A stretch of DNA of 13,377 nucleotides from Pseudomonadota bacterium. Its GTDB lineage: Bacteria > CALINM01. Of the stretch, positions 3,629 to 8,003 are shown piece after piece; within the stretch, counting starts at the first letter, position 1, and each line of letters starts with the position of its first letter. The position numbers and the translations under genes were made by a program. The notes beneath the pieces are model-generated. The model made no database searches and was not told where the DNA came from. It saw nothing but the letters and a program-made list of their open reading frames with translations. Location of the stretch: the NCBI GenBank assembly GCA_026415985.1, contig JAOAGA010000049.1:1-13377 (forward strand). Direction: 5' to 3'.

Positions 3629-4489
3629 TTATATACCAAATCTGTTGACTATCTCCGAAACTTTATCGTGGGGAACATCATTCTCGTGAGAAAGAACAGC
3701 ACTAAAAAATCTTAAAGTCCACTCATTGGCAAGCTTACGATTTCCTGCAAAAACAATGGTAAGGCGTGGATGTAGTGCATAAAGTTCTGCAATAGCTTTT
3801 ACTGCAAAGTTGGGATTATAAAACTTAAGTTTATCCACCTTTAAAAAGTCTGCGTAATTTGCTTCTATAACGAGGGCAGAGTGTTTATATACCGAGAGCT
3901 CTCCAAGTTGCTGATGAAATATTGCCATTCTACCAAACTCAGCAAGAATGTTATCGAAGGTTTTTCTCTCTACCACAGCGAGAATTTCGTTCTGACCTTT
4001 TAAAGCATAATCCCCTATAGGTAATTTAGATTTTTCAACATTACTGTTAGGAAATTTCCATGGATATCTCTCATTACTATCAATTATAACATTTAAAACA
4101 CCTGAGCGATAAGTAGTTATTTTTACTTTAGGTCTATTCTCCTTTAAAATCTTTTGTGTCCTCCAAAATATCTGTTCATACTCTCCTTCTTTGTTTTTAT
4201 ATTTCTTTGTAAGAAATAAAAAGTCGCATCGCTTGTTTTTAGGTCTGTCGAGCACAAGAGACAACCTTTTTCCAAATCTCTTCAAAGATACTACAGATAC
4301 CCTTTCGATCTCCTCAACAGGTAGTTCAAACTCCCTCTTTTCCTCCCGTAAACAGAATATATGGCCTTTTTGTCCTGGCCATTTGTCCTGAACCCTAAGG
4401 GCAAGTACAATTTCATTACCATGCCTTATGGTCAAACGATAGGGAAATTTGGGATTATTAACAGATTCGAGAATATAGAGCAAATTCAT
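3629..4489 (-). CDS. ERCC4-domain (XPF/MUS81-type) nuclease
   Basis: The C-terminal half is an ERCC4-type nuclease domain, the fold that cuts branched or flapped DNA in XPF, MUS81 and archaeal Hef. In this 286-residue protein the acidic and metal-binding residues are visible in order: IIDSNER at 135-141, PIGDYAL at 157-163 and the ERK signature at 174-176 (VVERKTFDN). Residue 179 is Asp, but residue 180, where the eukaryotic consensus ERKxxxD has its aspartate, is Asn. Residues 205-262 (ALVIEANYADFL, then a basic segment) fit the rest of the fold. There is no helicase domain and no clear helix-hairpin-helix DNA-binding pair. Residues 1-130 are a charged, beta-rich domain I do not recognise. 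The start overlaps the upstream UPF0149/SEC-C gene by one base (TGATG), so the two are translationally coupled. A role in DNA repair or processing is inferred from the fold only. Confidence 0.8.
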   Translation of the reverse strand: MNLLYILESVNNPKFPYRLTIRHGNEIVLALRVQDKWPGQKGHIFCLREEKREFELPVEEIERVSVVSLKRFGKRLSLVLDRPKNKRCDFLFLTKKYKNKEGEYEQIFWRTQKILKENRPKVKITTYRSGVLNVIIDSNERYPWKFPNSNVEKSKLPIGDYALKGQNEILAVVERKTFDNILAEFGRMAIFHQQLGELSVYKHSALVIEANYADFLKVDKLKFYNPNFAVKAIAELYALHPRLTIVFAGNRKLANEWTLRFFSAVLSHENDVPHDKVSEIVNRFGI

Positions 4490-5217
4490 CAGTTAACACC
4501 ACAACATTTTTTGTATTTTTTCATGCTTCCACAGGGGCATAACTCATTGCGACCAATCTTTCTTTTACCTTGCTTGTAATCAAAATTACACTTAGAGATA
4601 TTTTTATAATTTTTCTTCCACAACATCTCTCCATATTTTTTGAGAGTATCCACCGCTAAAGGTAAAGAAACAAACTGTATTGCAGTAAACGTTTTCTCAT
4701 CACAAGGGTGTCCGTCTTCACTTCTAAACAGTCCCGTAGTCTCTTCTGGAAAAACCATACTATACGCTACCACGTAGCTTAGTTGAATCTCATAAACATC
4801 ATCCGGAACATGTTCCTCAAGATAGTCAAGGTACCAGATCTTGGGACGCAAACTCAAGGCGGTAATGAAGCCATATGACCACTCACACATCTCATCAAAA
4901 ACTTCTTCTGAAAAATCACTTTCTTTTAAGTTACTGAAAGGAACCTTTAACTTGCCTTTATGGAAAGCATTGCAATAAGCATTATAAGCATCGATTAATT
5001 TCTCAATATATTCTTCATTAATTACGTCAGGTTTTTCTTCAGCAAAAATCACAGGAATCCACTCGCCCGGAGGAATTATCTCAGGAGTTATCGCAAGCCC
5101 GAAAAGAAAACCCTCAAGCTCAGTTAAAGTGAAAGCTTCCTCATTACCTACAAAATATAGTAATTCTTCTAAAATTTCTCTCAGGTGGGCATTTAAAATA
5201 TTATGTGCTTTTCCCAT
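4489..5217 (-). CDS. UPF0149/YecA-like protein with C-terminal SEC-C zinc motif
   Basis: The body (residues 10-200) resembles the UPF0149 (YecA/YgfB) family: an N-terminal helical stretch with LTELEGFLFGLAITPEIIPP and the WIPVIF segment typical of the group, followed by more helices. Residues 222-240 form a SEC-C motif (GRNELCPCGSMKKYKKCCG), with Cys227, Cys229, Cys238 and Cys239 or a nearby residue as zinc ligands. SEC-C ends are found in SecA, where they bind SecB and ribosomes, and in many small uncharacterised proteins; the function here is unknown. The ATG at 5217 follows AAGAAGA and has a possible TATAAT about 50 bases upstream. The stop codon overlaps the ATG of the ERCC4 nuclease by one base, which makes this the first gene of a two-gene unit and hints that the products act together. 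Confidence 0.8.
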   Translation of the reverse strand: MGKAHNILNAHLREILEELLYFVGNEEAFTLTELEGFLFGLAITPEIIPPGEWIPVIFAEEKPDVINEEYIEKLIDAYNAYCNAFHKGKLKVPFSNLKESDFSEEVFDEMCEWSYGFITALSLRPKIWYLDYLEEHVPDDVYEIQLSYVVAYSMVFPEETTGLFRSEDGHPCDEKTFTAIQFVSLPLAVDTLKKYGEMLWKKNYKNISKCNFDYKQGKRKIGRNELCPCGSMKKYKKCCGVN

Positions 5218-5280: not shown

Positions 5281-5535
5281 TCAATGCAAATATGAAAGAC
5301 ATAACTGGACAGTCATTAATTTAAAAGTATGTTTATATTGAATTAATATTACTGAGTATCTGTCCCGGTTTAGTTTTAACAACTTAATTATACCTAATAC
5401 CTTAGACATAGCTTCTACCCTTTTTATACCTATGTCAAACTCTTCATATAAAATTACCTTTTCAACTCTTATATCTTTTAACTGGTTAATATGTCTATAA
5501 CTATTTGGGGTCAGAAAGCAAATTTTTCTTGACAT
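5281..5535 (-). CDS. Doubtful small ORF, possible remnant of a longer gene
   Basis: This 84-codon ORF is the only coding candidate in the roughly 380-base gap between the YecA-like gene and tRNA-Val. I do not recognise it. It begins MSRKICFLTPNSY, which looks like the first beta strand of a Rossmann-type enzyme such as a glycosyltransferase. A leucine/isoleucine-rich helix with basic residues follows, then a short, ordinary-looking end (LCLSYLH). No Shine-Dalgarno sequence precedes the ATG at 5535, no further in-frame domain follows, and the start overlaps the -35 region of the promoter proposed for the tRNA-Val/thrS operon on the other strand. It may be a decayed gene fragment beside a tRNA, or chance. 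The rest of the gap (5218-5268 and 5536-5598) holds only the promoter elements listed separately and a small palindrome. Confidence 0.25.
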   Translation of the reverse strand: MSRKICFLTPNSYRHINQLKDIRVEKVILYEEFDIGIKRVEAMSKVLGIIKLLKLNRDRYSVILIQYKHTFKLMTVQLCLSYLH

Positions 5536-5558
5536 AAACTTATTGAAATTGTTATCCT
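5529..5558 (+). promoter_or_regulatory. Sigma70-type promoter for the tRNA-Val/thrS translation operon
   Basis: A perfect TTGACA at 5529-5534 is followed after 18 bases by TATCCT (5553-5558, 4 of 6 matches to TATAAT). Transcription would start near 5565, about 34 bases before the mature tRNA. It is the only convincing plus-strand promoter I see before the block of translation genes. A short palindrome, CTTAAATTTTAAG at 5585-5597, lies directly before the tRNA 5' end and may help or hinder RNase P processing. Confidence 0.5.
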
Positions 5559-5598: not shown

Positions 5599-5670
5599 AG
5601 GCACGTAGCTCAGGGGGAGAGCACTACCTTGACATGGTAGGGGTCGGCGGTTCGAGACCGCCCGTGCCTA
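5599..5670 (+). tRNA. tRNA-Val (anticodon GAC)
   Basis: A full cloverleaf folds by eye. The acceptor stem is AGGCACG/CGTGCCT, followed by T8 and A9. The D arm is GCTC/GAGC, the anticodon stem CTACC/GGTAG with loop TTGACAT (anticodon GAC at 5631-5633), the variable loop is five bases, and the T arm is GGCGG/CCGCC with loop TTCGAGA. The discriminator is A at 5670, as expected for valine. It reads GUC and GUU codons. CCA is not encoded, so the 3' end must be trimmed and CCA added. The first pair is A1-U72 rather than the common G1-C72. The thrS start codon lies only 11 bases after the discriminator, so the tRNA appears to be excised from the thrS message. Confidence 0.95.
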
Positions 5671-5681
5671 TTTTTATTTTT

Positions 5682-7490
5682 ATGGAAGCTATTGCTGCGA
5701 GAGTTAACGGTGAATTAATTGACTTAAGTCAGGTTAAGGGTGATTATGAGCCTGTTTTTCCGGAGGATAAAAGTGCCCTTGATATCCTGAGGCATAGCTC
5801 TGCCCACGTTATGGCTGAGGCAGTTAAGGAGCTATATCCGGATACCCTTGTAACTATCGGTCCTGCTACAGATACTGGTTTTTACTATGATTTTGATAGG
5901 GATGAGCCCTTTACTGATGAAGATTTAGCCCTTATTGAAAAAAGAATGGCAGAGATTATTGCGAAAAAAGAGCCCTTTGTAAAAACAGAGATGACCATTG
6001 ACTCTGCAATTGATTTCTTTTCCAAGAAGGGAGAAAAATATAAGGTTGAAATTATACAGGAACTTAAGGAAAAGGGAGAAGAAAAGGTTTCGCTTTATAC
6101 ACAGGGTAGTTTTGTCGATTTATGCAGGGGACCCCATATCCCCCACACGGGGTTTATAAGGGCGTTTAAACTTTTAAATGTTGCGGGCGCATACTGGAGA
6201 GGCGATGAGAAAAATAAGATGCTCCAAAGAATTTATGGTACCGCATTTTTTACAAAGGAAGAGTTGGAAAATTTTCTCAGGTTTATAGAAGAAGCGAAGG
6301 AAAGAGATCACAGAAAGTTAGGTAAGGAGCTCGATCTCTTCAGCATTAGTGATGAGGTAGGCCCGGGGCTTGTTATATATCATCCCAATGGTTCCATACT
6401 AAGGTATCTGCTGGAGGACTTTGAAAGAAAAGAACATCTGAGACGTGGATATAAGATGGTATACGGACCCCATATAATGAGACTTGAGCTTTGGAAAAAG
6501 TCCGGCCATTACGATAACTATAGAGAAAATATGTATTTTACGGAAGTGGAGGGGCAGGTTTTTGGTATAAAGCCCATGAACTGTCTTGCCCATATTGCGG
6601 TCTATAAATCAAAGGTCAGAAGTTACAGGGATTTGCCATTGAGATATTTTGAGTTAGGCACTGTTCACAGACATGAAAGATCCGGTGTTTTACATGGTCT
6701 GTTAAGGGTAAGAAGTTTCACTCAGGATGATGCCCATATCTTTTGCAGACCCGATCAGGTACAGGATGAGATAAAGAATGTTATTAAGTTTGTCGATGAT
6801 GTAATGGAGATGTTTGGCTTTTCTTACGATATTGAGTTATCTACAAGACCGGAAAAATCTATCGGAACAGAAGAGATCTGGGAGTTGGCCACAACGGCAT
6901 TAAAAAACTGCTTAGACGAGTTAGGAAAGCCTTACGAGATAAATGAGGGGGATGGTGCCTTTTACGGACCTAAGATAGATATTAAGTTAAGAGATGCCCT
7001 CGACAGAAAATGGCAATGTGCAACTATTCAGTGTGATTTTAATCTGCCGGAAAGATTTGATTTAACCTTTGTAGGGCAGGATAATCAGCGACACAGACCA
7101 GTAATGCTTCACAGGGTTATCCTTGGTTCAATAGAGAGATTTATAAGTATTTTAATCGAGCATTATAAAGGGGCCTTCCCGTTATGGCTTGCACCTGTTC
7201 AGGTTTTGGTTTTAAATATAACCGATAATCAGCTTGATTATGCCAGAGAAGTTATTGAAAAACTGAGGATGAACGATATCAGGGTAGAGGAAGACTTCAG
7301 AAACGAGAAGTTAGGTTATAAGATCCGTGAAGCACAGATGAGAAAGATCCCTTATATAATTGTTTTGGGTGATAAAGAAAAGGAAGCAAGAACTCTTTCC
7401 ATAAGGACAAGGGAAAAGGAAGAGAAAAAGGATGTGAAGATAGAAGATTTTATATCAGAGATAAAAGAAAAGAATGATAAAAGGAGGTAG
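5682..7490 (+). CDS. thrS: Threonyl-tRNA synthetase, with N-terminally shortened TGS domain
   Basis: ThrRS charges tRNA-Thr with threonine and edits mis-attached serine. The 602 residues contain the editing site (H38xxxH42 and C148xxxH152), the class II core with SGHYDNY and ENMYF near 274-286, motif 2 around HRHERSG (329-335), the zinc ligands Cys301, His352 and His477, motif 3 ([12 protein letters not shown], 476-487) and the anticodon-binding domain from about 505. These residues sit 33-35 positions earlier than in E. coli ThrRS (H73/H77, C182/H186, C334/H385/H511), so about 35 residues of the first half of the TGS domain are absent. An in-frame ATG at 5634 is inside the tRNA and is rejected; 5682 is the first usable start, with only U and A upstream and no Shine-Dalgarno sequence. 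The usual NCPGH around the zinc cysteine reads NCLAH. The last codons carry the infC ribosome-binding site. Confidence 0.95.
7481..7487 (+). promoter_or_regulatory. infC ribosome-binding site, inside the end of thrS
   Basis: AAGGAGG is a near-perfect Shine-Dalgarno sequence formed by the last sense codons of thrS (K-R-R), directly before its TAG. It lies six bases before the ATA at 7494, an ideal distance, and decides the infC start where no ATG, GTG or TTG exists. Confidence 0.9.
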
Positions 7491-7493
7491 GGT

Positions 7494-8003
7494 ATAGAAA
7501 AGGAATATCGAATTAACGAAAAAATTAAGGTCCCCAAGGTTAGGGTAGTTGATGAGGAAGGGAAACAGCTTGGTATTCTTGATACAGGTCAGGCAATAGC
7601 AATAGCAAAAGAAAGAGGATATGACCTCGTTGAGATTGCTCCCAGTGCGGACCCGCCGGTTTGTAAGATTATTGATTATGGCAAACTGAGGTATCAGCTG
7701 AGTAAAAAATCTCAGGAGGCGAAAAAAAAGCAAACGGTTATCCAGATAAAGGAGATTAAGCTTAGGCCTAAAACGGATGTTCATGATATTGAGGTAAAGG
7801 TTAATCATATAAAGAGATTTATTGAGGATAAAAACAAGGTTAAGATTAGCGTGGTTTTTAGAGGTAGAGAGCTTGCTCACAAAGAGTTTGGAGTTAAGGT
7901 AATGGATGAGGTGTTAACAAGGATTTCGGATTTTGCAAAGTTAGATAGTGAGCCCAAGTTTGACGGTAAGAGCTATGTAGTTATTGTATCGGCAAAAAAG
8001 TAA
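7494..8003 (+). CDS. infC: Translation initiation factor IF-3, starting at an AUA codon
   Basis: IF3 binds the 30S subunit, keeps it apart from 50S and rejects wrong start codons and initiator tRNAs. The 169-residue product shows the N-terminal domain from [15 protein letters not shown] through [11 protein letters not shown] and [13 protein letters not shown] (residues 5-72), a lysine-rich linker, and the C-terminal domain beginning [18 protein letters not shown] and ending [10 protein letters not shown]. Length is close to E. coli IF3 (180). No ATG, GTG or TTG precedes the conserved sequence: upstream in frame there are only GGT and ATA before the thrS TAG. The start is therefore ATA at 7494, six bases after AAGGAGG. 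In E. coli infC starts with AUU and IF3 represses its own translation by discriminating against it; the same control is inferred here. thrS and infC are in the same frame, separated by one stop codon. Confidence 0.93.

Follow-up and report, generated by a model that had tools for sequence, protein, structure and literature searches.

In the window, a 13,377-nt stretch of a draft Pseudomonadota genome, the gene of threonyl-tRNA synthetase (thrS) begins 11 nt downstream of a gene for tRNA-Val(GAC) and lacks a Shine-Dalgarno (SD) sequence. The reading we favor, with a probability of about 0.6, is that one promoter serves both genes, that RNase P and RNase Z would excise the tRNA constitutively, that thrS would be translated by SD-less initiation, and that the junction resulted from a deletion. 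The co-transcription, the cleavage site, the SD-independent initiation, the deletion, and the constitutive nature of processing are what we infer.

The tRNA-Val–thrS junction and its promoter

The features of the locus are as follows:

3629-5217, minus strand: two ORFs that adjoin the tRNA–thrS unit, one of 242 aa with a SEC-C-like motif at its C-terminus (CPCGSMKKYKKCC), the other of 286 aa and ERCC4-type nuclease-like
5529..5558, plus strand: putative sigma-70-like promoter of tRNA-Val and thrS, TTGACA-18-TATCCT (10 of 12; inferred start site about 5565)
5599..5670, plus strand: tRNA-Val(GAC) (ARAGORN; Rfam, 62.8 bits; genome tRNA list)
5671..5681, plus strand: spacer TTTTTATTTTT, A/T only, without an SD (sequence, hybrid energy); predicted 5' leader of thrS after RNase Z cleavage
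5682..7490, plus strand: thrS, 602-aa threonyl-tRNA synthetase (TIGR00418, 762 bits); stop codon 7488-7490
7494..8003, plus strand: infC, next gene of the operon, with an apparent ATA start and the SD AAGGAGG

The 3'-terminal base of the tRNA (5670) is the discriminator A, and CCA is not encoded. ARAGORN, Rfam, and the sequence itself agree on the 11-base gap between this base and the ATG at 5682 that the original prediction had described, and its view that the spacer consists of U and A only and that thrS lacks an SD also holds: the best anti-SD pairing at positions -20 to -4 of thrS amounts to -1.7 kcal/mol and is located in the acceptor stem of the tRNA, and the spacer taken alone gives +3.6. 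The SD energies in the same operon are -12.3 (infC), -12.5 (rpmI), and -9.5 kcal/mol (rplT). In about 121 kb of the same genome (contigs L152-L157 and the window, with crude gene calls), an SD of -8 kcal/mol or better precedes 18% of the long ORFs vs. 1% of control ATGs, and pairing at the first ATG is weaker than -3 kcal/mol in about 36% of the long ORFs. Since about a third of the ORFs thus lack a real SD, the SD-less start of thrS is noteworthy inside its operon but not unheard of genome-wide.

The family comparison comprises the window genome (a 1.57-Mb draft of 161 contigs, about 84% complete) and two others, G001 and G002, the three together representing two genera; all other genomes in the relatives search are listed as sharing only the domain. 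The ThrRS proteins of G001 and G002 are 77% identical to that of the window, tRNA-Val is identical in all three genomes, and the thrS genes have the ATG-GAA start in common. The spacer in both relatives is 12 nt long and again all A/T (TTTTTTAATTTT), compared to 11 nt in the window, and spacing is longer in more distant phyla. Because three genomes of two genera retain it, the tight junction is more than a chance event. The original prediction would have counted a normal leader and a more extended thrS start in relatives as evidence against itself. Such genes do exist in distant phyla, where spacers are longer, an SD is usually present, and the TGS domain is full, but both members of the family have the tight junction.

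The promoter at 5529..5558 is the best among the promoter-like sites found on the plus strand by a promoter scan. In the alignment of the three family genomes, a block ATTTTTCTTGAC(A/T)...TAT(T/C)CTT, corresponding to a TTGACA-17/18-TATTCT-like promoter, is conserved ahead of the tRNA, whereas the DNA beyond it is unrelated (the 242-aa ORF in the window, repetitive coding sequence in G002). This contrast suggests that the unit starts at the promoter and takes in both tRNA and thrS, which would then be co-transcribed as one transcription unit. A separate thrS promoter in the tRNA region would have spoken against the original prediction; the scan found none inside the tRNA, the 11-nt spacer has no room for one, and the conserved promoter lies only upstream of the tRNA. 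A weaker promoter within the invariant tRNA is possible. The tRNA was also considered as an intrinsic terminator, and this was rejected after a scan found no terminator-like site.

Distribution and origin of the tight junction

Among 122 distinct thrS loci, a set biased to Desulfobacterota and Deferribacterota and their kin, 98 have a tRNA-Val(GAC) on the same strand that precedes thrS by less than 500 nt; in a sample of one locus per family (L006-L032), it is present in 17 of 27, with a tRNA-Val(CAC) in one more. The pairing of thrS with a non-cognate tRNA, thought unusual in the original prediction, is therefore widespread, and rarity is limited to the tight junction. Judging from this survey, the association of tRNA-Val(GAC) with thrS is an old bacterial linkage.

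The median spacing between tRNA-Val and thrS amounts to 88 nt. An SD is common in spacers of 17-29 nt (L011, L012, L035, L056, L068), although it is absent in L016, L164, and L166. Spacers of 12 nt or less occur in just 8 of 99 loci (the window counted), none of which has an SD. These loci belong to the family of the window, to the genus of G022 (L018, L161, L162, L163), where thrS starts 6-7 nt past an encoded CCA, and to L081, where it starts 9 nt past the CCA. On the ThrRS tree, they occupy three places, and a minimum of three label changes is required by the starred branches, suggesting that the tight SD-less junction arose at least three times, in separate lineages. In family f21, the spacing ranges from 6 to 24 nt.

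A conserved terminator-like hairpin separates tRNA-Val from thrS in 47 of the 83 spacers that exceed 25 nt, where shuffling predicts 1.3, and is absent from the lineages with a tight junction. It consists mostly of GGCATC...GATGCC followed by a T run (e.g., L038:5836, L054, L063:5850, L059, L097) and matches no Rfam family. When the motif was searched in 2.27 Mb on both strands, all of the matches listed were at the junction or its reverse-strand reading, save a weak one in L054 (minus strand). The hairpin often ends up only about 20 nt from the thrS start and may thus be a thrS attenuator.

Besides the thrS gene at 5682..7490, the window genome contains no strong match to thrS. The product of this gene matches the profiles tRNA_SAD, tRNA-synt_2b, and HGTP_anticodon but not TGS; sequence and profiles indicate that the editing motifs HSSAH and CRGPH and the synthetase domains are intact. 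The ThrRS proteins of the window, G001, and G002 start in the second half of the TGS domain, the N-terminal half is missing (region 5682-5760), and none of the three matches the TGS model. This truncation is deduced mainly from the 30-35 further N-terminal residues present in most other loci, as the TGS model is insensitive here: L068 scores above its cut-off, but L081 and L011, which have N-termini of normal length, are also without a match. The domain is completely absent in L013, L015, L017, L028, L058, L099, and others, and seemingly partly eroded in L035. Since the N-terminus of ThrRS is full length in the genus of G022 and in L081, the tight junction does not depend on the loss of TGS. 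The simplest history for the family of the window is that an ancestor lost the spacer along with the first half of TGS, by a deletion that would have placed the start beside the tRNA.

A deletion could have joined the two genes by ordinary drift, leaving thrS with poor but adequate translation and making both processing and spacing immaterial. A good SD is missing from about a third of the ORFs in the genome, TGS has been wholly lost in other ThrRS enzymes (loci that match only from residue 24-34 onward), and the spacing varies freely in related lineages, all of which would fit such a course of events. We nevertheless consider it rather unlikely, because the composition and length of the spacer and the ATG-GAA start have been retained across genera at 77% protein identity and because thrS is a sole-copy gene.

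Maturation of the tRNA and initiation at thrS

The tRNA-Val of the junction is the only copy with a GAC anticodon found among the tRNAs of the genome and, like most of them, lacks an encoded CCA. The genome encodes an RNase Z (NF002558, 323.3 bits vs. a curated cut-off of 315), and in CCA-less tRNA precursors, this enzyme cleaves directly 3' of the discriminator (PMC8549757). Given a CCA-less tRNA and an RNase Z in the same genome, a cut after 5670 should leave a U/A leader of 11 nt, which supports the earlier expectation that excision of the tRNA would render the thrS message almost leaderless.

In the favored reading, the promoter at 5529-5558 would yield a single RNA that carries tRNA-Val(GAC) and thrS, followed by infC, rpmI, rplT, pheS, and pheT. 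RNase P would produce the 5' end of the tRNA, and cleavage by RNase Z after the discriminator would free the CCA-less tRNA and leave a thrS message that starts with UUUUUAUUUUU-AUG and bears a 5' phosphate (predicted message: 5'-UUUUUAUUUUUAUG). Ribosomes would then initiate on a very short, unstructured leader of only U and A without SD pairing, and tRNA maturation would set the 5' end of thrS, most likely constitutively. SD-independent initiation on messages with AU-rich leaders or leaders of a few bases is established in bacteria (PMC4611024). By the usual definition of a leaderless mRNA (PMC4681348), the leader is shorter than 10 nt; the predicted leaders of the window (11 nt) and its relatives (12 nt) are longer, and those of the G022 genus, at 6-7 nt past the encoded CCA, would fall within it. 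The transcript could instead be cut at a different site by some other nuclease (RNase E/G, J, or Y), and ribosome loading might begin before the precursor is cut.

Thermodynamic folding predicts an unpairedness of the start region in the window of 0.46 with the tRNA and 0.50 without it; in four comparison loci, removal of the tRNA shifts the value by +0.01 to +0.13. Such similar predicted openness of the start in both states is compatible with translation of the uncut transcript, in which the folded tRNA would occupy the side of the 30S subunit where mRNA exits, with the A/U spacer as entry site, and processing would be irrelevant; the 10-12 nt from acceptor stem to AUG may suffice to reach the P site. 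Processing of tRNAs is normally fast, however, so that uncut precursor should be scarce, and an RNase Z is present in the genome, which makes this alternative improbable.

The near-equal openness also means that folding gives no support to an on/off structural switch. The original prediction had proposed that tRNA processing could switch ThrRS synthesis, such that the enzyme would be made only or mainly after excision and its level set by RNase P and RNase Z activity or by the demand for tRNA-Val; together with the lack of any sign of conditional processing, the folding results leave this proposal unsupported. In favor of a switch, a 30S subunit bound at the AUG would presumably occlude the site of RNase Z cleavage 11 nt upstream, causing cleavage and initiation to compete; oxidative stress modulates RNase Z activity in streptococci (PMC8549757), and the tight junction has recurred in three lineages. 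On the other side, the sole GAC-reading tRNA found should be processed at all times, 11 nt is too short for a conserved regulatory element, and the drift of junction length in f21 is as expected for a neutral trait. A regulatory switch is therefore quite doubtful.

The weakest alternative, that the thrS start is mis-called or the assembly wrong and the true start lies elsewhere, has in its favor ATG 5634 in the anticodon arm of the tRNA, the sole other in-frame ATG, GTG, or TTG upstream of the conserved HSSAH motif, but is extremely improbable in view of the agreement of three separately assembled genomes, the absence of an upstream start in the relatives, and the one-base difference between spacers of 11 and 12 nt, which breaks the upstream frame, so that the tRNA is not read as thrS coding sequence and a start at 5634 was rejected.

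Known systems and further observations

Operons of tRNAs and mRNAs, SD-independent initiation, and tRNA punctuation in organelles are all known already. A bacterial operon of the first kind is thrU-tyrU-glyT-thrT-tufB of Escherichia coli, whose tufB gene retains an ordinary leader including an SD. The locus studied here would share with it a single transcript of tRNA and translation gene that is split by tRNA processing, but thrS has only 11 nt and no SD. The orientation of tRNA-Val and thrS behind one promoter is conserved in relatives (98/122 loci, promoter alignment). The thrS operator of E. coli and the T-box leaders of thrS in Firmicutes are regulatory leaders tied to threonine. They also place tRNA-related RNA before thrS; by contrast, the RNA here is a genuine valine tRNA that stands alone between promoter and thrS, there is no leader, and Rfam returned neither a T-box nor any other cis-regulatory match.

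A parallel is provided by tRNA punctuation in mitochondria and the apicoplast (PMC4995348), where a tRNA directly 5' of an mRNA creates the 5' end by its excision and the message lacks an SD and has hardly any leader, or none. The tRNA in the window likewise abuts the coding sequence across an 11-nt A/T spacer without an independent promoter between them, but the locus is on a bacterial chromosome, has its own promoter, involves a single tRNA–mRNA pair with a leader of 11-12 nt, and its cleavage is only predicted. Leaderless and short-leader mRNAs with SD-independent initiation (PMC4611024, PMC4681348) have an AUG near the 5' end and no SD in common with thrS; they arise mainly by transcription starting at the AUG, whereas the 5' end of thrS would stem from tRNA cleavage. 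For a bacterial synthetase start so near a processed tRNA, we found no description in the open-access literature; a search of open-access full texts found neither a tRNA-Val–thrS unit nor a bacterial leaderless mRNA made by tRNA processing.

If excision of the tRNA sets the 5' end of thrS, the message of an essential bacterial gene would depend on tRNA maturation, in parallel to organelle punctuation, and RNase Z and ribosome access would compete over the same 11 bases. The three origins of the junction offer a natural experiment on minimum leader length and SD poverty. The far-reaching version of this idea is unlikely, namely that in several unrelated bacterial lineages the mRNA of an essential synthetase lacks its own 5' end, leader, and ribosome site, and that this mRNA is both created and licensed for translation when RNase Z matures a tRNA unrelated to it.

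Downstream of thrS, the context of the apparent AUA start of infC (7494), behind its strong SD, is also present in G002; rare start codons of infC are a known device of autoregulation. An L20-Deltaproteobacteria ribosomal leader (RF03126) is located downstream in several other loci (L038:8612-8666, L054:8708-8782, L063:8641-8700, L097:8608-8687), with no match in the window at the Rfam gathering score. Elsewhere in the window genome, a tRNA-Arg(ACG) (L125; G000:C150:4906-4979 and downstream) is followed by a 16-nt SD-less spacer (TAATCTATAACTAACT) and an ORF for a 158-aa HEAT-repeat-like protein, and the tRNA-Leu/ugd-like and tRNA-Pro/plsY-like pairs have an SD within the spacer.
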